From: Sycon ciliatum
Lineage: Eukaryota; Porifera; Calcarea; Leucosolenida; Sycettidae
NCBI RefSeq assembly: GCF_964019385.1
Contig: NC_088655.1
Span: 6,170,658-6,234,657 of the forward strand
Direction: 5' to 3'
Length of the DNA stretch: 64,000 nt
Part shown: one piece after another, positions 35,851-60,114 of the stretch
Layout: every line of letters begins with the position of its first letter
How positions within the stretch are numbered: the first letter of the stretch is position 1
Notes under the pieces: generated by a model
Database searches by the model: none
Told to the model about the DNA's origin: nothing
The model's input: only the letters and a program-made list of their open reading frames with translations
Translations under genes and position numbers: made by a program

Positions 35851-36061
35851 AAATGTTGGGTTAGCTTTTGGGCTAACCCTAGTTAGCGATAAGACCGATG
35901 CGCTGCTCTCTATCTCATGCTAGCTGCGATCGAGCTGGCTTTACACGTGCACTCAACTGCTGCGCATGCGCGCCCAAATCGCCTTGGGTAGCTCTTGCTG
36001 CGCTGACTTTGGCTTGCGCTTTCCTTTGCAGTGTCACTGAGCAGCAACCGGAATTTGTTTG
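35851..36061 (+). repeat. Split direct repeat A1
   Basis: 211 bp, one mismatch with A2 (39502-39712). A short inverted repeat GGGTTAGC-TTTTG-GGCTAACCC lies 6-28 bases from the end and could be a recombinase-binding site. Confidence 0.93.
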
Positions 36062-36127
36062 TTGAGAATAGAATTAATTATTCAGACTCCTTGTAGATTC
36101 CTCGCAGCCGTTTACTGCACGACAAAC

Positions 36128-37219
36128 ATGTTGTCTACCTCTGAAGCACGCCGTATGAACGTGTCGGACTTGCGGGCCGAGCTGGAAGGCCGTGGGCTGA
36201 ATTCGAGCGGAACAAAGCCCCAGCTTCTTGCCCGTTTGCTGCTCAGTATCCAGGACACGTCGAGCTCGGCGGCACGGGAACCTCGATCTCCGTCGGCCAC
36301 GCCATCCTCGCGGCAGGAGCACGAGCAGGAGCAAGAGCAGGATCTGGAGAGTGCTGCAGCAGCTTCTCCGACTCCCCAGATCCCGGACCGGAGCAGTAAT
36401 GACGATTTGCGCCAGTTTGTGCGGCAGGAAGTACATTCCGCCGTCACCGTTGCCTTGTCGGAGGCGATCGCTCCAATGCTGGCCACCATCACTGCCCCTG
36501 GATCCGCTGGAACTCAACCTTCGGCGGAGTCTTCCAACGCTGGTAATCTCTCCGTTCCCCAGGCTATACGAGAGAAAATATTGAAGGGTGACTTTGTAGA
36601 TTTCACCCAGCTGCTGCCCGATACTATCGCCACCTCGTATTCTGCCCCATGCCAGCTTCAGCTGCAGTTCAGCAGTGGCGGCCAGTCTCTGGAGGTGGTG
36701 GAAGGTGGAGCGGCGCAGCCCGTTCGTCGACGCGTCCACGACTTGCCGACATGGCTGGAGGCATGGACTCTCTTCATGAACGTCGTGTGTTCTGCCAACC
36801 CGTCCCGCCTGCAGGAGATGCTCTCCTACCAAGCCACCATAGTTGCAGCCAACAGGCAATACTATCCGGAGGCTTGGCTGTCGTACGACACCCAGTTTCG
36901 CTCTGCCATTTCTGCTCAGCCAGGCAAGCGCTTTGACGTCATCGACATAAATCTGTGGCAAATGTCCGTGACTAGCCGATCAAGGCCCACATGTGAGTCC
37001 TGCCGCCTCATCCATCCCGGAGGCGGCCAGTGTCCCTTTCGTCCGCAACGTAACAACCAGCAAGCCTTCAATGGAGTCCGTACGGTGTCTAATGGCCAAC
37101 CGATCTGCCGGAACTTCAACGCTGGGCGTTGCAGTCTCAGCACGTGCAAGTACGCCCATGTCTGCAACCGCTGCGGGTCCAAGGACCACAACGGATCTAA
37201 GTGCGGTAGGCGCCAGTAA
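36128..37219 (+). CDS. DIRS-type ORF1: gag-like protein with SAP domain and zinc fingers
   Basis: The chosen ATG at 36128 (context aaacATGt) gives 363 residues. An upstream ATG at 36059 would add 23 residues but lies in the A1 repeat. Residues about 7-45 form a SAP motif (SDLRAELEGRGLNSSGTK, then LLARLL), a DNA-binding helix-loop-helix. An acidic Gln/Glu run (EHEQEQEQDLE) follows. The C-terminus has a CCCH finger (CRNFNAGRCSLSTCKYAH) and then a CCHC knuckle (CNRCGSKDHNGSKC). Gag-like ORF1 proteins of YR retroelements often have such nucleic-acid-binding fingers. The frame is intact and overlaps ORF2 by 227 bases in a different frame. Confidence 0.88.
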   Translation: MLSTSEARRMNVSDLRAELEGRGLNSSGTKPQLLARLLLSIQDTSSSAAREPRSPSATPSSRQEHEQEQEQDLESAAAASPTPQIPDRSSNDDLRQFVRQEVHSAVTVALSEAIAPMLATITAPGSAGTQPSAESSNAGNLSVPQAIREKILKGDFVDFTQLLPDTIATSYSAPCQLQLQFSSGGQSLEVVEGGAAQPVRRRVHDLPTWLEAWTLFMNVVCSANPSRLQEMLSYQATIVAANRQYYPEAWLSYDTQFRSAISAQPGKRFDVIDINLWQMSVTSRSRPTCESCRLIHPGGGQCPFRPQRNNQQAFNGVRTVSNGQPICRNFNAGRCSLSTCKYAHVCNRCGSKDHNGSKCGRRQ

Positions 37220-38876
37220 TTCTGCTGCTTTGGCTGCAGCTCCCGCGATTGTACATATTTCTCCCTGCACTTCACGTTCTACTGATTTCACAAGCGCATG
37301 TCCTGCTGTCCACACACCCCTCTCTGTTTCTCGCTTCGAATCACTGCTCCGTAACCACCCTGACAGTTCATTGGCTTCGTATGTTATTAACGGCCTCCGC
37401 TGCGGCTTTGACATTGGCTTTACCGGCAACCGCATAACTAACCAGCACTCGTCCAACCTCTCATCAGCATTCCAGCACTCTGCATTTGTGTCTGCACAGC
37501 TCACCGCTTCCTGCAACGCCGGCTACACGGCTGGCCCATTTGACTCGCCCCCATTCCCATTTATGTACTGCTCTGGCATTGGCGCTGTTCCGAAAAAGAA
37601 TGGCAAGCTACGCTTGATACACCACCTGTCCAGCCCTGCCGGCTCCAGCGTTAACGACGGGATCCCTGCCGAGCCTTTCTCTTTGCAGTACATCAGCATT
37701 GATGAAGCCATTAACATCATTATGTCCTCCCCGTCTCCTGTCTATCTCTCTAAACTCGATGCGAAGAGTGCTTTTCGTCAAATACCTGTCCGCCCACAGG
37801 ATTGGCATCTCCTCGGCATCCTGTGGCAGGGGAAGTACTACTACGACCGTGTCTTGCCATTTGGGCTCCGCTCTAGCCCGGCGGTATTTGATGCAGTGGC
37901 AGCCACCATCGAATGGATAATGCACCACGAATTCTCCATCCCTAATTTGCTGCATTTCCTGGACGACTACTTGTGCGTGAGCGTGGGCCAGGCAGTGGCG
38001 AATCGGCAGCTGGCCATTCTTCTCCGTGCATTCTCATACCTCGGAGTCCCGCTCGCGCCTGCAAAGGTGGAAGGCCCGTCTCGTACCCTGACATTCCTGG
38101 GCATTATCCTGGATTGTGAGAAGATGGAAGCCCGGCTCCCTGACGACAAATTGGCCGACATCAAGCGCCTGTTGACTGCAGCGAGCATCAACCCCACCAT
38201 GTCTCAGCGCGAACTCGAATCTCTTCTGGGGAAACTCTCCTTCGCTGCAAGAGTCATCGTACCCGGCCGGACATTTATGCGGCGCCTTTGGTCTATTTGC
38301 AGTCGCTACCAGCAGCCTCACTACCGCATCAGTCTGACTACCGAGTGCCAGGAAGATATCCAATGGTGGCTACGGCTCCTGGAACAATGGAACGGAAAAT
38401 CATTCTTCCTGTTCCCAGATTGGACACCATCTCCAGACTTGGAGCTGTTCACTGATGCCAGTGGCACCCTGGGCTGGGGCGCATTCAACAGCGGCCGCTG
38501 GCTTCAAGGGACCTGGTCGCCTGAGCAACTCACTCACAGCATTGAGTGGAAGGAGCTCTACGCGTTGGTCACAGCGTGCTGCACGTGGGCCAAGGAATGG
38601 CGCCAGCTTCGTATCACAATGCACTGCGACAACAAGGCTGTGGTAGATTGCATCCGCTCCGGCACATCCAAGTCACCGCCAGTGATGACCCTGATCAGGG
38701 AGCTGTTCTTTGTGTGCGCCCGCTTCAATTTCACCGTCACTGCTGCTCACATTGCTGGCCAGTCAAACTGCGTTGCCGATTCGCTGTCTCGTTTCCGCAT
38801 GGAGGAATTCCGACGTCTCGCCCCAGCTGCTCAAGCACAACCAGACCGAGCAGTGCTGCCATTCCAGTCGATGTAA
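36993..38876 (+). CDS. DIRS-type ORF2: reverse transcriptase and RNase H
   Basis: 627 residues, no stop. RT motifs include KLDAKSAFRQIPV (about 253), LPFGLRSSPAVF (about 288) and the catalytic FLDDYL box (about 321). RNase H shows LFTDASGTLGWGA (about 484), EWKELYAL (about 518), HCDNKAVVDC (about 543) and HIAGQSNCVADSLSRF (about 585), so all four acidic residues are present. The RT is of the DIRS type, related to Ty3. In autonomous DIRS elements a tyrosine recombinase follows, sometimes in the same frame; this protein ends 42 residues after the last RNase H motif. The first in-frame ATG lies inside ORF1. ORF2 is +1 relative to ORF1, so frameshifting or internal initiation is possible. Confidence 0.92.
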   Translation: MSPAASSIPEAASVPFVRNVTTSKPSMESVRCLMANRSAGTSTLGVAVSARASTPMSATAAGPRTTTDLSAVGASNSAALAAAPAIVHISPCTSRSTDFTSACPAVHTPLSVSRFESLLRNHPDSSLASYVINGLRCGFDIGFTGNRITNQHSSNLSSAFQHSAFVSAQLTASCNAGYTAGPFDSPPFPFMYCSGIGAVPKKNGKLRLIHHLSSPAGSSVNDGIPAEPFSLQYISIDEAINIIMSSPSPVYLSKLDAKSAFRQIPVRPQDWHLLGILWQGKYYYDRVLPFGLRSSPAVFDAVAATIEWIMHHEFSIPNLLHFLDDYLCVSVGQAVANRQLAILLRAFSYLGVPLAPAKVEGPSRTLTFLGIILDCEKMEARLPDDKLADIKRLLTAASINPTMSQRELESLLGKLSFAARVIVPGRTFMRRLWSICSRYQQPHYRISLTTECQEDIQWWLRLLEQWNGKSFFLFPDWTPSPDLELFTDASGTLGWGAFNSGRWLQGTWSPEQLTHSIEWKELYALVTACCTWAKEWRQLRITMHCDNKAVVDCIRSGTSKSPPVMTLIRELFFVCARFNFTVTAAHIAGQSNCVADSLSRFRMEEFRRLAPAAQAQPDRAVLPFQSM

Positions 38877-39050
38877 TATAGCCTTGACATACAGGTACCG
38901 ATTGTCATTGCTAAATTGCCGTATTGAGAACCTGCGTTGGATTTCATCCATCTGCATGCCTACCTTTATCCATCTCGTGCCTTAATCACTTGTTCTTAGC
39001 TCTCGTGCATTGGTGGTGAACGCTTGCTGGGGTGCCGTGTGCTGGTTTTC
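38877..39050 (+). other. 174-base spacer between ORF2 and repeat B1
   Basis: Stops in all forward frames and no conserved motif. This is where a tyrosine recombinase would be expected in related elements. Confidence 0.8.
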
Positions 39051-39504
39051 TGGGAACAGCTTCCTTCAACTGGTTGCTTTGCTGCTACTATCTCTGCTTA
39101 AAATTGCATACTATTGGTCGGCTGTTTGCGACGCCAATCAGTAGTCATTGCACCCGGTCGCGGGTACTATTGCCGCTCAAGCATGAGCGATTGCTTTGGC
39201 CGTTTGCAACGCCAACTGCTTCACCCTGGTTGGCTGTTTGCAACGTCGATCAGGGAACTTTGCACCCGGTCGCGGGTACTGCTGCAGCTCAGTCGTGAGC
39301 GATCACTGTGGCTGTTTGCAACGCCAATCGCTTCACCAGTTGATCGAAACCAGCACACTGGTGTACCCCAATCATCCTTGTGCGGTGTTGTGAGAATACG
39401 TGGGTATGCATGCAGCTTTGCTCTGTGACTTTCCATTGCATGTAGTCACTTGGCTCTCCCATTTCCTATACACTGCTCTGATGCATTCGGGTGCAAGCGC
39501 TAAA
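39051..39504 (+). repeat. Split direct repeat B1
   Basis: 454 bp, apparently identical to B2. It contains two degenerate tandem modules of about 105 bp sharing GCACCCGGTCGCGGGTACT and TTTGCAACGCCAA. Small identical frames in B1 and B2 (for example 104 codons at 39114) are a consequence of the duplication. The last three bases (AAA) are shared with A2. Confidence 0.93.
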
Positions 39505-39712
39505 TGTTGGGTTAGCTTTTGGGCTAACCCTAGTTAGCGATAAGACCGATGCGCTGCTCTCTATCTCATGCTAGCTGCGATCGAGCTGGCTTTACACGTG
39601 CACTCAACTGCTGCACATGCGCGCCCAAATCGCCTTGGGTAGCTCTTGCTGCGCTGACTTTGGCTTGCGCTTTCCTTTGCAGTGTCACTGAGCAGCAACC
39701 GGAATTTGTTTG
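39502..39712 (+). repeat. Split direct repeat A2
   Basis: 211 bp copy of A1, separated from B2 by a 32-base spacer that ends in TATATAGG. Confidence 0.93.
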
Positions 39713-39744
39713 CCACCCACCCTCCCATTCCCACATTATATAGG

Positions 39745-40198
39745 TGGGAACAGCTTCCTTCAACTGGTTGCTTTGCTGCTACTATCTCTGCTTAAAATTG
39801 CATACTATTGGTCGGCTGTTTGCGACGCCAATCAGTAGTCATTGCACCCGGTCGCGGGTACTATTGCCGCTCAAGCATGAGCGATTGCTTTGGCCGTTTG
39901 CAACGCCAACTGCTTCACCCTGGTTGGCTGTTTGCAACGTCGATCAGGGAACTTTGCACCCGGTCGCGGGTACTGCTGCAGCTCAGTCGTGAGCGATCAC
40001 TGTGGCTGTTTGCAACGCCAATCGCTTCACCAGTTGATCGAAACCAGCACACTGGTGTACCCCAATCATCCTTGTGCGGTGTTGTGAGAATACGTGGGTA
40101 TGCATGCAGCTTTGCTCTGTGACTTTCCATTGCATGTAGTCACTTGGCTCTCCCATTTCCTATACACTGCTCTGATGCATTCGGGTGCAAGCGCTAAA
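39745..40198 (+). repeat. Split direct repeat B2 (right end of the DIRS-type element)
   Basis: 454 bp copy of B1 ending GCAAGCGCTAAA. Beyond the AAA the sequence returns to the host DNA element. Confidence 0.93.
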
Positions 40199-40459
40199 GT
40201 CGTTTTTCAAATACCCACGCTATAACCGATACCCACTGTACTATTAAGTATTAGTAGATTTTACCAGCACTACACTTTTCATAACCAGGAGTTCGCAAAT
40301 AACCAAGGTCGAATTTTTTAGGGGGGTGCACGTGTCCCCATGCCCATCACGGGTGACGCCCCTGTCCTTCGAGCCGGATGGCGGACTTAGAGACAGAGCG
40401 AGCTGAGAGCAAACAGTGAGTTAGAAAGGGATGAGGAAGAAGGCTTCGAATTCTCTTCG

Positions 40460-42165
40460 TTGGCAGCCAGGAAAACGGCTGATGCCAGGTCTGTAGGAAG
40501 CGCAGAATCAAGTAGGTCAGGTACTAGTAGTATGCCCAGAGCAACATCGTCCTCACGACGACAAGCGAAGATTCAGGCCGCTACGAAGACGTTATGTCTT
40601 GAAAAGGAATTTCTGGCAAAGAAATTCGAACAAGACAAAAGACTGGTGGAGCTGGAGTTGGCCGAGGACCTAGCTAGGTTCTCCGATGAGGAAAGTGTTC
40701 CGGACGACAGTAGCCAACATAGCTCACATCGCTCCTCAACTACAAGTGTGCGCTCAAATCGTATTGGTGCTCTCTCGATCTTCAACTGCAGTTCTGGATA
40801 TATGAACGGTGTGGATGAGCAGTCAGTGCAGGAAGTGGAGTCTGAAAGCCGAAGACGCAGTAACGTGAGTTTGAGCAATCACAGAGGAGATTGCGTCCAA
40901 CCTGCGGTAACTTTCGTACCCCAGTCTGAGCTGACAAGACCTGTCAGGCCACCACCACAACCTCCTGTACACCGTGTACAGGCCAAGCGTCCACCTATCA
41001 TGAATGCTGCAGCCAGGAGCTTCAAGCCAGCAAAGGCTGGTGCAGCCAGTAGAACGCACCTTGACTCTGATGCGCCACACCCGTCTGTGAGCGCAGAGAA
41101 TCCAGCCACCGATCCACATGGTCCAGAGGATCCCACTGCATGTGCACGATACGTTCAGAACTGGGTAAACAGTGTGCCACACAGTGCTGGGTATGTTGGT
41201 ATTCCCGCAGTTCCAGATAAAGCCGCTGGAACTGCCCAAATTCAATGGCCAACAGGAGAGCTATCTTCGATGGCGCCAGCGCTTCATGCGTCTCGTAGAC
41301 GACGGTCTCATATCAACAGAGGATTATAAGATGGCATGGTTGCGTGAGGCGCTGGATGGTGGGAAGGCTGAAGAACTTGTCAGTGGCATTCTGGACGGCC
41401 CTGGGGCATACAGTGCCGAGCTGAACGTGCTCGACCAGTGGTTTGGCGGCGAAAGCCGGGAGCTGGAAAGGCAACGGCAGGAATTAATGTCCAGTCCCCG
41501 GATCTCTCGGGAAGATGACACAACAGCTTTGCAGCGACTGGCAGTGAAGCTGAGAAACGCCCTGCTTAACCTGAAAATGGCCAACGTCGCACCCGGACGC
41601 GAACTGTACATAGCAGTGTCTAAGAAGCTCCAAAGATGCTGTCCCGATTCTTGGATCGGTATGATGACCATAGCTGTGACGCGGAGGTGTTGTCTACCTG
41701 GCTGCTGAAGCAGGTGCACAGAGCACAGCAGGTGGATGCGCGCCTCGCACTGCCCAGAGAAGCCGTCACAGCATCTAACCGCAAGCCGTACGAAGTCCAC
41801 AGCAGGAGAGCGCCCAGCTCAGTTTGGCACGCAACCCAACATGCATTCCATGCCTCGAGGGGTAAGCCAGCGGAGACTCCCAATACCTGTTTCAAGTGTG
41901 ATGGTAATCATCTCCTGAGCCAGTGCCCCGCCTTCACAGCAATGTCGGTACGAGAACGCTGGGATTTAGTGAAACCCACACCTCTCTGTATTTGCTGCTT
42001 GCGACCCGGCCACCATAGCATGTCCAGTAGTGGGTCCACCTGCGCAAAGTGCAACGGCAAGCACCATGCACTGCTGCATTTCGACAAGTTCAGCAGCAAC
42101 AAGCTTCAGCAGAAGCAGTCTAATAGCAGTAACATTCAGGGCAAGGTACATGTCAAGGAGCAAGT
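40460..42165 (+). pseudogene. gag: Second BEL/Pao element: gag, frameshifted
   Basis: From the ATG at 40460 the protein is Ser/Arg-rich, with a charged helix at residues 45-75 (KEFLAKKFEQDKRLVELELA). The frame shifts at about 41236 into IKPLELPKFNGQQESYLRWR, the capsid-like region, which runs on to LRNALLNLKMANVAPG. It shifts again at about 41635 (LSRFLDRYDDHSCDAEV). Zinc-knuckle-like clusters follow at 41890-42090: CFKCDGNHLLSQC and CICCLRPGHHS, CAKCNGKHHALLH. The order is normal for BEL gag; the two shifts make it non-functional. Confidence 0.85.
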
Positions 42166-45100
42166 TCTGCATGTGTGCTGCTCGCAACCACGACGAACGT
42201 CTCTCCCTGCCATATCATTCATGACAGTTCCGGTCACAGTTCGCAACGGAAGTCAAGAAACCGTATGCAGAGCACTTCTTGATCCTGCATCCGACAGCAC
42301 GTATATCAAAGCCGCAGTGGCTGAAGCTATCGGCTTGACTGGAGATCCGGAACCGCTCCAAGTGACCACACTTGGTGGCAGCCAGATGGAAGCCATGCGC
42401 TGACGTACACCGGTGACCATTCAAAGTAACCTTGACCCACCAGATCAGCGCTTGGGTTCTGCCATGCGTCACACCTGACACCATGGCAGTCGACTGGAGT
42501 CAACACCAAGATGCCTGGACGCATCTGCACGACATACCATTCCCAACTATGGACACCGGCGACATTGGTCTGCTGATTGGTGTGGATGATAAGCCAATTG
42601 CCCGTCGGACTCCGCTCGGTTGGGTTTGCTATGGCCCCACAGGTACAAACACCGAGAGGTCCCAGTCTATCATCACGAACCGTGCCACTGCCGCTGTACA
42701 ATCAGAGATGACCTCCTCTGGCACAGAATCGCGTCTGGATGAGCTCATCCTCAACCTATGGGACACTGAGTCCATCAGTGTTGTGAACGCTGACCAGCGA
42801 TACCGCACACCAGCAGAACGTGAAGCGAAGGAACTGGCCACGGCTACCATGCACCATGATGGGCATCGGTACGAAATCGGCCTTCCCTGGATCCGCCCAA
42901 CTGGTCCGAACATCACATCAAACCGCGCTCAAGCTGAACAGCGCTTGAGAGGTCTAGAAAAGACCCTGTCAGCCAAGCCAGCGACCCAGGCAGAATATCA
43001 CCGCGTTCTTGCAGCACATCTGGAGAAAGGGTACATCCGGACTGTGCCTGAAGCCATCGCCGCAGCAGACTACCAGCCCCAGTGGTACCTGTCACACTTC
43101 CCAATCGTCCGGGAGGACAAGAGCACCAGCAAGATTCGTGTTGTGTTTGATGCCGCTGCTGTCTGGAAAGGTCGCAGCATCAACGCAGAAATGTGCACAT
43201 GACCACGCCTACAGAACGACATCGTTCGCATCCTGTTGCGGTTCTCTGCGGAACCAGTAGCTCTCGTTGCCGACATCAGTGAGATGTTTATGCAAGTAGG
43301 GCTCAAAGAAGAAGATCAGCGGTTCACTCGGTTTCTATGGCATGCCAGCCCAGACGATGATATACAAGTGTAAGAGTTTAACCGGTTGGTCTTCGGCCTA
43401 AGAGCATCACCCTATCTCGCCGGCAAGGCTCTACTGCAAACTGCACAAGATTTCGCGACCGACTCGATGTGCAGCAACGACCTTCTCCAAGTGGTCGAGG
43501 AGAGCTTCTATGTCGACGAACTTCTGGACTCCTTCCAGTCAGCTTCTGTGGCAATAGATGCCCAACAACAACAGACACAGCTACTACAGTCTGGTGGTTT
43601 CAAGCTTTGCAAGTGGCTAAGCAACTCTACCGAGGTGGTTGAGTCCGTGCCAGAAGCCGACAAAACCCTGCAGGCGTCCCTGGATGTCAACAGTAACCAG
43701 CACTGCACTCTACCATCGTCTAAGACCATGGGCGTCATGTGGTTTGCTGACAAGGACGTATTTTACCTTCCGATACAAGGCACCAGAGGCGTCCCAGCAA
43801 TTAACCAAGCGATACGTTCTACGGCAGATGGCAATGATCTTCGATCCAAGAGGTCAGCTAACACCGTTCAGGATGCGTGCAAGAGTACTGTTTCAGGAGG
43901 CATGTGCCGCTGGATATGGTTGGGACGAGCAGCTGAATGACGACGACACGGCCCGTTGGAAGCGCAGGCTATCAGAGTTACCCGACCTGGCACAGATCCA
44001 CGCTGACCGATGTTTCAAGTACACCGATGCGGATCCAACCTGCGTGAAGACAGAAGTTCACACATTTATCGATGCATCGGATGCAGCTACAGCAACAACC
44101 TGCGGCGTCCGTTCTGAATATCCAGATGGACGCGTGAAGGTGACACTGGCATTCACTAAGTCGCGGCGAACTCCTATCAAGAAGCTAAGTATCCCGAGGC
44201 TCGAGCTGAATGGAGCAGTCCTTGGAGTACAGCTAAGTAAAGAGCTTGAAGCAGCGCTGAAGACACCATTGACGGAGCACCGTTTCTGGACGGCCAGCCT
44301 CAATGTGTTGTACTGGCTGAGATCCCACAGCCGACGATTCCGCACAGACATCGGTGTAAAAATCTCGGAGATTCAACGTGCCACATCACCTCTGCAATGG
44401 CAACATGTGACCGGTAAGATCAACCCGGCAGACCTACCCACACGAGGAATGCCAGCCACCTTGCTAGCAACGAGCAGCACATGGTGGACATGACCAGAGT
44501 TTCTGTCCAAGCCATCGACCGAGTGGCCGCAACGCGATATCACCGTCCCAAGCAAGCTTCTAGGAGAGACTAAGCGACACCAAGCGCTGACGTTTGTCGC
44601 CAAAGCCACTGTATCTAGACTGCGTCCCGAGAACTTTTCATCCTGCAACCGACTGAAGCGTGTCACGGCTTGGATATTCCGGTTCTCCTCAAACTGCCGA
44701 GGTGCCAAGAAGGGGGAAAAACCTGAGGGCAGTGATGCAGTCTCTCGTGTAGCTGTGTCGTCGGCAGAGAATTTAGTAGTTCCCGAACGGTCGGCAACTG
44801 AAATACAGCGAGCAGAACGGCACTGGATCAGCATTGCCCAGCAGGAGTGTTACTTGGCCACTATTTCGACCTTACAGCGGGAGAGAAGTGTTAAGCCCTC
44901 GGACACTTTGCTCCGGCTCAATCCAGTCTTAGACACCGCTGAACGGCCATTTGTACTACGCGTTGGAGGCAGGCTGCAGCAGGCATCAGCAATGCCGGAA
45001 AGTACGAGGCAGCCACTGATACTGCCGTATCGGCATCCAGTATCTGACCTCATCATTGCCAATGAGGATCGCAAAACCCACCCTGCGTCGACACGAATCA

Positions 45101-46164
45101 TCTGTGGGCCAACCTGACAACTTCGTATTGGCTGATCAAAGGCAAACAAGCGATCAAATCGCATCGCCTACGATGTAATGGCTGCATTCGGCAGTGGAGG
45201 AAGCCTGCAGACCAGCTCATGGGCCAACTTCCTGCCACTCGAGTTGCTATGACCAAGCAGGCCTTCCAGCATGTTGGAGTAGACTTTGCAGGCCCATTCC
45301 TAACCCTTCAAGGTCGTGGACGCTCACAATTCAAGCGCTATCTCTGCCTCTTCACATGTCAGGAGACACGAGCATGCCATTTAGAGATGACCTATAATGT
45401 GTTTTGGCCGATTTTGTAAGCGCCGCGGAGCACCACGTCTAGTAGTGTCAGACAACAGCAGAAACTTTGTGGGTGCCGAAAGTGAGCTGCGTGATGCCCT
45501 TGAAGCTATTGACCGAGGTCAAGTGGTCACCTGTACAGCGACAAAATAGCACACGTCGTGGACGTTCAACCCACCCCGGGCACCACACCATGGCGGCTTC
45601 TTCGAAGCGCTTGTCCGGTCAGCCAAGCGAGCAGTGTTCGCTATACTGCATTCTGCTAACTTCACTGATGAAGAGCTGCAAACTGCATTCGTTCAGGCAG
45701 AGGCCTTGTTGAACGGCCGGCCACTGACCACAGTTGGATCAGATGCTGATGATCTCGTCCCTTTGACACCTCAGCAGTTCCTCATTGGCCACATTCAGGT
45801 AGAAACGGGCATAGAAGCGGCACAAGCTTCTACGACACCCACACACCCGCAGAGACGGTGGAAAGCTGTGCAGGCTGCTGTGGATCACATCTGGCTACGT
45901 TGGTTGAAGGAATTTGTGCCCACGCTTAATATCCGACAACGTTGGAGAATGCGCAGACGGAACATAATGGTTGGTGACATGGTATTTTACATGGCACAGG
46001 ACACTCCCCGTGGAATGTGGCCTCTCGGCAAATTGGTGTATGTTTTCCTCGGAGCAGACGGTCTCGTGCGTGTGATGGACATCCTCGTCAAAGGCAAAAC
46101 GTATCGGCGTCGGACCAACTTGCTGGTTCCACTTGAGGTAGAGCCGGAGGTGCCTGCCAAGTGA
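42166..46164 (+). pseudogene. pol: Second BEL/Pao element: pol (protease, RT, RNase H, integrase), multiply broken
   Basis: The protease motif is ALLDPASDSTYIKAAV, where D-S/T-G is replaced by D-P-A. RT includes TPLGWVCYGPTG, IRVVFDAAAVWKGRS, and the catalytic box as FYVDELL, with Glu for the second Asp. RNase H reads HTFIDASDAATATTCGV, then SIPRLELNGAVLGVQL. Integrase shows QHVGVDFAGPFL, a region around SDNSRNFVGAE and the C-terminal RQRWRMRRRNIMVGDMVFYM. Stops or shifts occur near 42403, 43202, 43373, 43940, 44493, 45117 and 45419. The coding end at 46164 is close to the LTR. Confidence 0.88.
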
Positions 46165-54852: not shown

Positions 54853-56250
54853 ATGGTAATGGCGTTTCCGCCACCACTAGAGTTTGTGACTAGTAGTTTT
54901 ACGCCACGCTATTATGGTACGAGCGTGGGTGAAACTCCTGTTGAGGAACTTGAGGACCGCTGGAAAGAATTGATTCGTCGCAGAACAAACTTTCGTAGAC
55001 GCCGCACGCGGATTAGTAACCGATTGCAAACACTGATTGCTTGCTCCTCGCCGCCTCGCCGATATTTGCAGCCTGATGTCCGTGAATTGGAATTTGTACG
55101 GTCAGAGATGAATTTGGTTTTAGAATTATGCGCAGTATGTTGGGATCCCAAGAGAGTGAACAACTGCTGAATGAGTTGGACGAGTGGGAGACGAAGTTTG
55201 ATAAGGAGAGTGTTGGTGAAAGGCTGCTGCTGAGGCGATTTTGGATTCGCCTGTTGAGTCTGTTTCTGGCCAAGTGGCATCAGGCCAACAATCAGCAGTC
55301 GCAGAACAGGTTACCCCTGTGCCACCATTTACACCACCGCACATGCGGCCTGTGCCACTGATCCCAGCACCACACACACGGCCGACACCACCACCGAAGC
55401 CACGGAGTCTGAGCAGCAGAGCAACGTCAGTTGGCTATAGTGCTCCAATGAGTAGACTTTCTGAGTGGTCTCCTCATCCGGAACCTGCAGTGGAGCCCCA
55501 TGTGCATGATTAGCTTGTCAGTATGCAACGCCCGCATGGGGTCAGTGCTTTACACCACTTAAAGCCGCTGGAGCTGCCCAAGTTTAGCGGAAAACGCGCA
55601 ACAGTTTGTGCGGTGGAGTGAATCGTTCAAGCGGCTGGTGGATGAGGATCGCTACGTATCCGACGATTATAAGCTGGCTAGGCTAAAGGAGGCGCTCCAA
55701 GGAAGGTCTGTTGAGGACATTGTGGGCCAGATGTTTGATGGGCCAGGCGCATACGCTGCTGCTTGGGCAGAACTTGACCAATGGTATAGGGGAGAAGACC
55801 GCCACCTGGCACTACAGGAGAAGGCAATCCGGAACCATCCCAGAATCACAGACCGTGATCTAGAAGCCCTGCGGAAATTTGCTGTCAAGCTCAGAAATGT
55901 GCTCATGAATCTGGACTTGGCAGGAGGGAGCTATTCCTAAGTGCGCTGGAGAAGCTACCCAGAAGTGTAGTTATACGCTTTTACGAACCACATCCAGACA
56001 GCAAATGCAACGCAACCACATTGTTGTTCTGGCTGGTAAAACGGGTCCAGAACGCGAGCCGATGACATCAGGGCGCTGACAACCAAGTGCCGCTGGGACC
56101 TGGTCAAGCGTGCCAAGCTGTGTAGCTGTTGTTTGGAGCATGGACACTGGGCGTGTGAGTGCCAGAAGCTGGAACGTTCCCACTGTGGAGAGAGGCACCA
56201 CTCACTTCGGCACTACAGCAAGTCAGTGCAGCCACAACAAGCTGCAGTGC
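54853..56250 (+). pseudogene. gag: Third BEL/Pao element: gag, multiply frameshifted
   Basis: From the ATG at 54853 it reads PPLEFVTSSFTPRYYGTSVG and ELEDRWKELIRRRTNFRRRR, a basic helical N-terminus. After shifts at about 55130 and 55230 and a stop at 55513, the capsid-like region follows (FKRLVDEDRYVSDDYKLARL, GPGAYAAAWAELDQWY). It is broken again at 55940. The zinc-knuckle region at 56080-56210 includes CSCCLEHGHWACEC. No functional protein is expected. Confidence 0.82.
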
Positions 56251-56299
56251 AGAATCCCGCTACGATGCGGCCAGCAGCTCCGGCACCTCGGCAGGAAAG

Positions 56300-59200
56300 T
56301 TCTCACCCTGCTAGTGTCAGCGTGCCACAGACTACCGCTTTCGCTACCGTGCCAGTGAAGATTATTGGCCCAACTGGCAAGTCGGCAATCTGTACGGCCA
56401 TGCTGGACTCAGGCTCGACTGTAAACTTCATACGGGAGGATGTAGCCCATGAGTTGGACATGGCAGGTGAAGTTCACATGTTGAACACATCCACGATTGG
56501 TGCACAGCAGACCTCCAGCTATCAGGAACTGGTCAATGTGCAGATGGAATCCATTGATGGAACAGTGTCATACCCGCTCAAGGCATGCGTATATGACCGT
56601 GTGACCAAGAAGACGCAGGTCGTCGACTGGAGCCGGTACAAGTCCAGCTATGAGCATCTGAAGTTCATAGACTTTCCCGAAATCTCCAGCACCATGGTCG
56701 ACCTCCTGATCAGTCTGGACGTCATTGATGCCCACGCATCACTCGCGGAGTACAGAAGCAGCAGCGGTGGACCAATTGCCCGCAAGACGCCACTGGGATG
56801 GGTGTGTATGGCCCAAAGCCCAGTGCACCCAGTGATGACGAGTTGTCCGTCAACTATGTGCATGTTTTATACGGCGAATGCAGCATAGACAGCCTGGTCC
56901 AGAATTTCTGTAATCTGGCGGCAGTCGGTATGAAGCACGAAGGCACCTACATCACCTCTGCAGAGAAGCTGGCTGAGGAGATCGTTGCGAAATCCATCAG
57001 CTTCCATGATCAGCGAGTCACCATGGCAGTCCCATGGATCCACAGCAATGGCGAGCCTAGTGTCACCGCTAATCGCGCCATGGCAGACCATCGTCTGTGA
57101 ATGCTAGGGAAATCGCTGGACAAGCGTCCAGAGCTGAAGGCAGCATACGGCAAAGTCATATGTAGCCACATTGACAAAGGCTATGTGCGCGCAGTGTCGG
57201 CAACAGAGGTTGAGGCAGATGGCGACGACCAGTGGTTCCTGCTGCATTTCGCCATTGTACGAGGTGACAAGGGCACCACGAAGGTACGTGTCATCTTTGA
57301 TGCTGCTGCCAAGTATGACGGCACGTCGATCAATGAGTGCATGTACGCTCGACCCGCTCTGCAGAATGACCTAGTGAAAGTGCTTCTGCGGTTCCCCAAG
57401 GAGCCAGTAGTGCTCACGGCGGACATTACCGAGATGTTCCTGCAAGTCGTGCTGGCTGAGCAAGACCGCCGATATTATCGCTTTGTGTGGGACTCACGCG
57501 TATACGAGTTCGAGAGGTTGGTGTTCGGCATCAAGGCGTCTCCGTACCTGGCATGCAAGGCGCTACAAGTGGTGTGCCGCGAACCAGCCGACGAGTATGA
57601 CCCAGCCATGTTGCAGATCGTTGACCGAGACATGTACGTGGATGATGTGCTGCACTCTGCTGTCTCCATACCGGAAGCCATCCGCACACAGCAGACAGTA
57701 CAGGACATCCTTGAGCAGGGCAGCTTCCACCTCCGCAAGTGGCTCAGCAATAGCTCGGAGGTGATGGCTGGCGTACTGGAAGCTGACCGCTTACAGCAGC
57801 TCATAGCTAGCATCAATGATCATGATCACTGTGTGCTACCGTCAGTCAAGATGCTAGGCGGCAGAGGATGATACCTTTGCCTTTGAGTTCAAGCCGCCTG
57901 CAACAGAGAAGCTGACCAAGCGAGCCGTGCTGAGTAAGATGGCATCTATATTCGACCGACGCGGACAACTAGCTCCCTTCACGATTCGCTCTCGTGTCAT
58001 GTTCCAGGAGCTGTGCATCCTCGGGGTGGGCTGGGATGATCCACTGGACGCTGAGCACACGCGGAGATGGACATCCTGCTTTAGCGAGCTGGGAGATCTG
58101 GCGCTGATCCGTGCGCCGCGCTGCTTCAAGTGTCCGGGTCGCGAGTCGTCTGTCGCTACATTGTCGCTGCACGTGTTCACGGATGCTTCAGATGCCGCCT
58201 ACACCGCTAACGTGTACGTCCGTGCTGAGTACCCAGATGGCAATGTGCGAGTGACGCTAGCACTCGCCAAGGCGCGTCCATGTCCCATTAAGAAGATGTC
58301 GATCCCGAAGCTGGAGCTGAAGGGTGCTATGCTTGGTGTTTGCCTGGCCCAGACAGTGAATGACGAGCTAGATCTGCCGAAGGCTGATGCCACCAACTGG
58401 TCCGACTCGATGAACGTGCTTCACTGGGTGAGAGCACATTCCAGAAAGTTTAAAATCGACGTGGGCAACCGGATAGCTGAAGTACAAGAGTATTTAGCTG
58501 GCAACCACGTTCTTGGAAAGCTGAACCCAGCCGACAAGAGCACCAGAGGCTTGACAGTAGCCAAGCTAGCCAGTGATTCAGTATGGTGGAGCGGCCCTGA
58601 GTTCCTCGTCCAGCAGCACAATGAGTGGCCGTCTCGTCAGATAACCGTGCCAAAAGAGTTGCCCGGAATGGTAAAGCGAGCGCAAGTGATGGCGTTCGCT
58701 GTGCAGCAAGTTTCAACGGAGGTGTTTCGTCTCCACCCCGTCAACTACTCGTCATGGAAACGGCCTTTAGCTACCGTTTCATCAACCCCTGTTGTCGACG
58801 TCATGCTAGCACGAGAGGGGATCCGGAAGCAGCAAGTACAGCAGCCGACTCTGTGGAGCTGAAGTCTGAGGAGCTCCAGCGTGCCGAATGTCACTGGTAT
58901 GCGATTGCACAAGCAGAGAGCTATCCCGCTTCGTATCGGCAGCTGACGTCAGGGAAGTCCCTTGCAGCGAATGACCCGCTGCTACGGCTGAATCCAGTGC
59001 TCCACAAGGACTACCCGTGTGTACTACGCGTTGGAGGTCGTCTGAAGACTGCCAGCCACTTGCCTGAGCATACCCGGCATCCGATAATCTTGCCCCAGCA
59101 CCATCGCATTACTCAGCTGATAGTCGACGCCGAAGATCGCAAGTGTGATCACAGTGTGGGCCCAAACCACCTCTTGGCAAACCTGATGCTGCGGTTGTGG

Positions 59201-60114
59201 ATCATCCGTGGCAAGGTTGTCACACGATCTCACCGTGCCCACTGCGTGCTCTGCAAGAAGAAGTGGGCCACTGTGGCTTTGCAGCAGATAGCACCGCTCC
59301 CGCTATTCCGAACAGCTCCACCGTGCCGGGCATTTTCAAGAGTGGGAGTTGACTATGCCGGTCCGTTCCGGACAAAACAAGGATGTGGCAAGACCCAGCT
59401 CAAGAGGTACCTCTGTGTCTTCTCTTGTTTGCAATCCTGAGCCTGTCATTTCTAGATGGCGTGTGGCCTGGACACCGAGTCGTTTCTGCTAGCATTCACC
59501 CGTTTCTGCAAGCGCAGAGGCGTGCCAGCTGAGGTCGTGCCAGATAACGGGACGAACTTTCTCGGTGCAGAGCGCGAGCTAAGAGAAGCTGATCAAGCGC
59601 TAGGTTCTAATGAAGTGGCCGCAAGTATGGCCAGCCAAGGAGCTCACTGGCACTTCAATCCATCTCTCGCCCCGCACTTTGGCGGCGTATTTGAGTGTGT
59701 GTGGTCAAGGCAGCAAAGCGCGCAATGATGGCAACTCTGTAACAGGCCAATCTCACTGATGAGGAACTTGTAACTGCCATTGTGAGTGCGAAAGGCCTAC
59801 TCAACTCGCACCCGTTGACCGCTGTCCGGATTGACGTGGATGATGCCGCACCGCTAACACCGATGCACTTCCTAGATGGACAGTGCGAGCTGACTCTGCC
59901 ACTCGAAGAAGTCGCTGAGTTGCACCCACAGCGTCGTTGGCGGCTCCTCCAACAGCTCATACGCGAGGTATGGCGGCGATGGCTTCGAGAAATAGTGCCT
60001 CGGCTGAATGTGCTTCAGCAATGGTCTCGACGCAGCCGCAACATCAAGCCCGGTAACATTGTCCTCTGCATTGTGGCTTGTGGCTTGCCGCCAGTGACTA
60101 TCCAGATATGTTGA
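56300..60114 (+). pseudogene. pol: Third BEL/Pao element: pol, broken by several stops
   Basis: Protease keeps the motif AMLDSGSTVNFIREDVA. RT includes KVRVIFDAAAKYDGTSINEC and an intact DMYVDDVLHSA box. RNase H reads HVFTDASDAAYTANVYVRAE and KKMSIPKLELKGAMLGV. Integrase shows HPIILPQHHRITQLI, CVLCKKKW, VGVDYAGPFRTKQ, VPDNGTNFLGAEREL and the end QQWSRRSRNIKPGNIV. Stops or shifts occur near 56888, 57100, 57871, 58862, 59440 and 59728. Catalytic residues are better preserved than in the second element. The 3' LTR was not recognised, so the element is probably truncated after 60115. Confidence 0.87.

Follow-up and report, generated by a model that had tools for sequence, protein, structure and literature searches.

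We found that the retroelement at positions 35851-40198 of the 64-kb stretch of DNA from the calcareous sponge Sycon ciliatum analysed here (the window) has no tyrosine recombinase (YR) gene and that its close kin in the genome, among the matches listed, likewise show none. We put at roughly three in four the probability that this is a Ngaro-like family that lost its YR, makes its own cDNA and uses, as we infer, the YR of a relative in trans. In what follows, the window copy is the element at 35851-40198, the YR-less family is the window copy together with its kin at 84-100% RT identity, and A and B are the two parts of a split direct repeat. The window copy is 4348 bp long and runs in the order A1, ORF1, ORF2, B1, A2, B2, with the following features:

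35851..36061, + strand: A1, the left terminal part of the split repeat; starts AAATGTTGGGTTAGC...GCTAACCC...GTTAGC, a putative recombination-site arm
36128..37219, + strand: ORF1, gag-like, with a SAP domain and a CCCH-like finger close to the C end (below the Pfam cut-off)
36584..36593, + strand: counterpart of the P0161 splice donor, AAGG/GTGACT here and AAAG/GTGAGT in P0161, the +5 G being absent
36972..38876, + strand: ORF2 (stop to stop), overlapping ORF1 in the +1 frame
about 37587-38111, + strand: RT in ORF2 (Pfam)
about 38553-38792, + strand: RNase H in ORF2 (Pfam)
38802..38804, + strand: counterpart of the P0161 splice acceptor, GAG here and TATGCAG in P0161
38877..39050, + strand: 174-bp spacer, occupying the place of the YR gene in YR-bearing relatives
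39051..39504, + strand: B1, containing two 111-bp units that are 81% alike
39502..39712, + strand: A2, sharing AAA with B1 (overlap)
39713..39744, + strand: A2-B2 spacer of 32 bp
39745..40198, + strand: B2, the right terminal part

A1 and A2 differed by 1 mismatch in 211 positions and B1 and B2 were identical at 454 of 454, which confirmed the order and the near-perfect repeats described in an earlier reading of the letters by themselves (the sequence-only reading), as well as the 174 bases that it had counted between RT-RNase H and B1. Both ORFs are open in the window copy; RVT_1 and RVT_3 were the sole Pfam domains of ORF2 at E up to 1, and its matches among proteins included P0047 and P0056 of Sycon ciliatum. 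The absence of a YR gene from the window copy, also claimed in that reading, was upheld by a tblastn search that used the YR portion of P0102 and found none in the 64-kb window: the best match (E 0.004) came from a stretch of RNase H still attached to the query protein, and all others had E of at least 1.9. A 22-base pattern spanning the B/A junction, with up to one mismatch allowed, occurred at 39 genomic places (34 exact and 5 with one mismatch) against 0 for the reversed control, and the split-repeat junction is therefore not due to chance.

The Sycon ciliatum assembly that we searched comprised 538,412,230 bases. With A as the query there were 41 matches, all 99-100% identical (best 40 of 172 candidates scored), and 27 regions around A matches were retrieved and mapped. 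Fourteen of these had a B-A-B end (L010, L012, L013, L015, L017, L019, L020, L022, L023, L024, L026, L027, L028, and L033); of these, L010 and L026 have lost internal sequence by deletion, L017 carries an insertion within gag, L015 has a cut B2 and L022 has an additional A-B unit in tandem. Seven had A-interior-B without a second pair (L011, L014, L018, L021, L025, L031, and L034), two consisted of A-32 bp-B alone (L016 and L029), and four were fragments or incomplete (L009, L030, L032, and L035). Wherever a mapped region had both the RT end and B, a spacer of about 174 bp lay between them, with no YR. We rejected L017, with its A-A spacing of 5883, as a YR carrier, as its extra 2.2 kb sits in gag and has no internal frame of at least 150 aa, and we discarded a 2256-aa frame at C12:21787293 as an artefact of an N stretch.

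For the association of RT with YR, we used 70 RT places (best 70 of 6591 candidates, ranked by score down to 59% identity, with three second pieces of broken copies omitted) and 81 YR places from a search with P0161 (88 matches, the best 88 of 2013 candidates, less 7 to the gag end of P0161). We counted a YR if it lay on the strand of the RT, no more than 700 bp upstream or 5000 bp downstream of the RT 3' end. Among the matches listed, a YR was thereby found near 0 of the 46 RTs of the YR-less family and 0 of the 4 at 74-83% identity, against 18 of the 20 relatives at 59-70%, the other 2 of which likewise had no YR match. Structural support, from a junction of their own nearby or a contiguous spacer, was present for 38 of the 46 family copies, the other 8 simply having no YR match. 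The RT end, the 174-bp spacer and B1 were uninterrupted in 40 of 40 copies (best 40 of 207 candidates), in a list that ranks uninterrupted copies above YR-interrupted ones and alone could conceal YR-bearing copies. As for the 39 B/A junctions, 34 had RT or spacer within 1 kb (one of the 34 being the second junction of L022) and L026 and L041-L043 supplied four more with the YR-less layout, which makes 38 of 39, the remaining one being at C7:24668126 (L044). Because a YR was found at 0 of 46 copies and 40 of 40 were contiguous, among the matches listed, these data support the assignment of the window copy to a YR-less family and not to a one-off deletion. The sequence-only reading had proposed aligning the genomic copies to look for a recombinase, with a YR in most of them pointing to a one-off derivative; among the matches listed, most copies with a YR near them proved instead to be missing from the family and to belong to the relatives at 59-70% (18 of 20), so that a YR in most family copies was not borne out. 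Its option of a family dispensing with its own recombinase was borne out.

The recent movement proposed in that reading was also supported. Among the matches listed, 29 of the 46 RT copies of the family were 98-100% identical. In ungapped comparisons of 14 copies (the window copy and the 13 regions whose terminal motifs are exact, the A pair of L022 being A2/A3), A1 and A2 had 0-2 differences in 208 positions in 13 copies and 7 in L026, and B1 and B2 had 0-3 differences in 451 in 13 copies and 34 in L024. On different chromosomes, L027 and L028 both had a 16-bp spacer after A1 (compared by length, not by letters), which suggests descent from a YR-less source. Both frames were without stops or frameshifts in 11 of the 27 retrieved copies, the window copy not counted, and the earlier argument that intact frames speak against decay extends to these 11.

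ORF2 changes found in more than one copy (outside the ORF overlap) numbered 10 silent and 5 replacement and those in one copy 29 silent, 57 replacement and 5 stops, with small counts that were taken relative to the window copy and not from a tree, a change private to the window copy counting as common. Without selection, silent changes would be expected to stand to replacement changes as about 0.28 to 0.69, and Fisher p was 0.02 for common against single-copy changes and 0.003 against the expectation. Because the common ORF2 changes are mostly silent, the RT seems to be under selection in copies without a YR. The YR-less family also appears to have spread once its YR was gone. For ORF1 there was no signal of selection (2 silent and 3 replacement changes in more than one copy).

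The ends of the YR-less family look recombinase-made, because they combine a site motif, a target motif, no consistent duplication and one exact fusion to a relative's terminus. With ends of altered terminal motif excluded, A stood at -1 (before TGTT) in 26 of 26 left ends, at -2 in 20 of 26 and at -3 in 19 of 26, and AA stood at the start of 24 of 24 right ends. The sequence-only reading had noted AAA at both ends and at the B1/A2 junction, which is correct for the window copy (35851-35853, 39502-39504, and 40196-40198) but does not amount to a family rule, with an AAA start at 3 of 24 right ends. T was enriched over the local background at -10 (18/26), -4 (14/26), +9 (16/24) and +10 (19/24), with p of 2e-6 at -10 and 1e-7 at +10, for positions chosen by eye (20 listed, 7 tested) and a background that contains element copies. 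Among 22 copies with both ends, no target duplication was consistent by eye, and L017 could be read as having one of 5 bases. The putative recombination site of the family, GCT-AAA-TG / GTTAGC..GCTAAC, occurs in a YR-bearing sister family as well: the core and hairpin pattern GCTAAATG-GTTAGC-GCTAAC was found at 87 genomic places against 0 for the reversed control, 36 of family length (one being the L014 hybrid) and 51 of sister length, with the letters inspected for 22 rows. In L014, the family's A1 begins exactly at the B2 terminus of the repeat of a YR-bearing family with 63% RT identity; this neighbour is an A-B piece, and no RT or YR of the relative was found in the retrieved region. The A-interior-B and A-B forms may have arisen either by homologous recombination between the repeats or by recombination between the two B/A junctions of a circle, both of which fit their structure.

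The sister family (L036, RT at C7:24069079) has an RT identity of 68%, and the second relative (L037, RT at C2:47207750) one of 63%. Both resemble the YR-less family in their split repeats and GCTAA(A)TG junction, which in them come after the YR, and both differ from it in having a YR directly after RNase H; in 17 of 18 YR-bearing relatives, the YR begins between 66 bp before and 3 bp after the end of the RT match. The sister family has the same B-AAA-A design immediately after its YR, with its 25-base-type site exactly 400 bp 3' of the YR at C2:35452318, C7:10193016, C7:24068246, and C11:25490789 (letters inspected for two of the four). The similarity of the B end between the sister and the YR-less family exceeded that of 300 of 300 shuffles; the A repeats were not clearly alike, with 13 of 300 shuffles reaching the score, which counts against use of the sister's YR in trans. 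For the 63% family, the A score was reached by 5 of 300 shuffles and the B score by 4 of 300. The sequence-only reading had suggested looking for a longer relative with the same termini and a YR; the genome does contain relatives that carry a YR and share the design of the site, none of those listed being near-identical. No split repeats were seen in L038, of the P0161 family (1.4 kb). Scans of viral and genome contig collections with ORF2 or an alignment gave no relative. As a lead only, 8 of 117 typed RT clusters from other genomes were paired with a YR of a presumed common contig, and in an RT tree of proteins other than the named Ngaro and DIRS1 references, none of the nine closest to the window copy, among them P0001, had a presumed YR partner, a result to which we give no weight because the YR list held the best 120 of 630.

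In the Sycon gene model P0161, gag residues 1-148 are joined to a YR, the two parts lying at C12:21466258-21466701 and C12:21468908-21469819. The genome at these boundaries reads AAAG/GTGAGT and TATGCAG/GC and encodes the junction residues of the protein, and in an alignment P0122 joins gag to YR at the identical gag position. Judging from these gene models, the YR-bearing relatives may express their YR fused to gag by splicing, the remaining gag and the RT serving as an intron. In the YR-less family, all 23 copies compared have GTGACT at the donor, and of the 21 compared at the acceptor triplet 19 have GAG, one GAA, one GCG and none CAG (the window copy included in both), alterations that would not in themselves prove that splicing is absent. 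Among 120 RT relatives and the window copy, the acceptor codon was Q in 63 and another residue in 27, the motif not being fitted in 31, and the presumed YR-linked P0036 has D at this codon, counter to a strict Q rule. If true, gag-YR splicing with the RT as an intron would explain the clean loss of the YR half.

The architecture is Ngaro-like, but the YR that defines the DIRS order is missing, and we therefore call the family YR-less and Ngaro-like without counting it as a full member; we took the family definitions from passages of PMC4157794, PMC3266345, and PMC6681497. It has the split direct repeats (A1...B1-A2-B2), the RT and RNase H, and the lack of a methyltransferase domain (ORF2 carrying only RVT_1 and RVT_3) of Ngaro elements, and differs from them in that no YR gene was found in the window or in any copy examined. 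By eye, 22 copies showed no consistent target duplication beyond a short common core, as in YR-integrated elements. The PAT elements described in passages of PMC4157794 have split direct repeats and a zinc-finger-like gag, both shared by the YR-less family, and in nematodes a YR downstream of the internal repeats; in our family, Pfam found no methyltransferase after RNase H in ORF2, and the A2-B2 gap is 32 bp, with no YR there. The inverted terminal repeats and internal complementary regions of DIRS1-like elements were not seen, with 0 inverted pairs of at least 20 nt. To the earlier label of DIRS/PAT type, Ngaro-like is preferred because no methyltransferase follows RNase H and the relatives' YR abuts it. 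According to passages of PMC6681497, VIPER/SIRE of trypanosomes has A1 at the 5' end and B1-A2-B2 at the 3' end, SIRE itself being A2, about 30 bp and B2, and its authors left undecided whether it is a mobile element or a remnant. This make-up resembles the A-32 bp-B forms L016 and L029, but SIRE carries no genes, whereas the YR-less family keeps gag and RT and has lost the YR alone. In titles, beginnings of abstracts and passages of the open literature (including PMC9210276, PMC3783388, PMC5633606, and PMC12477816), we came upon no DIRS-order family described as lacking a YR while keeping its RT.

That the window copy is a normal element which has decayed or suffered a single internal deletion is scarcely credible, with nothing beyond the missing gene to recommend it and with the absence of a YR match from all 46 copies (among the matches listed), the clean frames of 11 of 27 retrieved copies and the 16-bp spacer common to L027 and L028 all against it. 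It is also very unlikely that the family has an intact source with a YR that went unscored or is missing from the assembly. The RT list held the best 70 of 6591 candidates and some stretches are N, but the list is ordered by score and reaches down to 59%; any near-identical RT of full length should therefore appear in it, and none of the 46 family RTs among the matches listed had a YR match near it.

A dedicated two-part system, in which the YR-less family would be served by another element that has the same A/B ends and carries a YR, appears improbable to us. P0135 and P0136 (4 and 12 member sequences) have a gag-like SAP N-terminus and a YR in one frame without RT, and at least one genome behind the protein collection therefore has frames of this type. 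In Sycon, however, all 39 B/A junctions lay more than 10 kb from every one of the 81 YR places (among the matches listed), the gag-end and YR matches of P0161 were about 2.2 kb apart in 5 of 7 cases and 4.4 and 5.3 kb apart otherwise, and no uninterrupted gag-YR frame was found among the P0161 matches listed. Integration independent of any YR, by host recombination or end joining of cDNA, would fit an element that itself has no YR, and homologous recombination between repeats could give the A-interior-B and A-B forms; we nevertheless think it unlikely given the precise ends (A at 26 of 26 left and AA at 24 of 24 right), the target bias at -10, -4, +9 and +10, and the L014 junction lying exactly at a relative's terminus.

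We favour a YR supplied by relatives because of the precision of the ends, the target bias, the sister site and the L014 fusion taken together. On this reading, the gag and RT of the family would package and copy its RNA, the split repeats would allow a circle with a B-AAA-A junction, and a YR from a related family would recombine this junction with an AA-containing target. Borrowing of a recombinase in trans, one of the options raised from the sequence alone, is thus where the site evidence points, the trans action being what we infer from it.

In non-autonomous retroelements, the coding genes have usually been lost together. In the YR-less family, the copying half appears to be under selection and the integrating half alone to have been outsourced, which would separate reverse transcription from recombination in elements of the DIRS order. 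We hold it as a tentative view, with a little less than an even chance of being right, that this is a lasting division of labour, in which an RT-only lineage with its own gag and RT selected has shed the YR together with the gag-YR splice sites and lives off the YR of a sister family through a compatible recombination site. According to passages of PMC5633606, the model of a circle plus a recombinase is still short of full proof for DIRS-1, and the YR-less family makes this model easier to test.

Three matches to the end of the reverse transcriptase (RT) frame, the following spacer and the B1 repeat of the window element, each paired with an RT, were found on the Sycon contigs C3 and C4 among the best 40 of 207 candidates and the best 70 of 6591:

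C3:28720687-28721185, match to RT end, spacer and B1, paired with the RT at C3:28721012
C4:16420855-16421353, the same match, paired with the RT at C4:16421180
C3:27639628-27640126, the same match, paired with the RT at C3:27639953

Taken whole, these RTs were just 76% identical to that of the window, and identity was 98% over the last 58 RT codons, the spacer and the start of B1. The three elements are apparently mosaics sharing the window family's 3' end, which lacks the tyrosine recombinase (YR).

The B repeat of the window contains two adjoining 111-bp units (39115-39225 and 39227-39337) that are 81% alike. Near the window-family copy in region L014, approximately 30 tandem units of 44 bp each (L014:5724-7096) repeat the start of the A repeat from a YR-bearing relative. 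Long broken frames at 40391-46164 and 56040-59440 of the window presumably resemble other gag-pol retroelements.

Within the window family, the spacer from A1 to ORF1 was 16 bp in both L027 and L028, which may mark a subfamily, and three gag proteins (P0242, P0244, and P0246) ended at an identical residue (..EAWL), perhaps reflecting a truncated subfamily common to them.

In the database proteins P0135 and P0136 (4 and 12 member sequences, respectively), a gag-like SAP domain was joined to a YR in a single uninterrupted frame. Such proteins may stem from reverse transcription of a gag-YR RNA after splicing, or may belong to elements without an RT.
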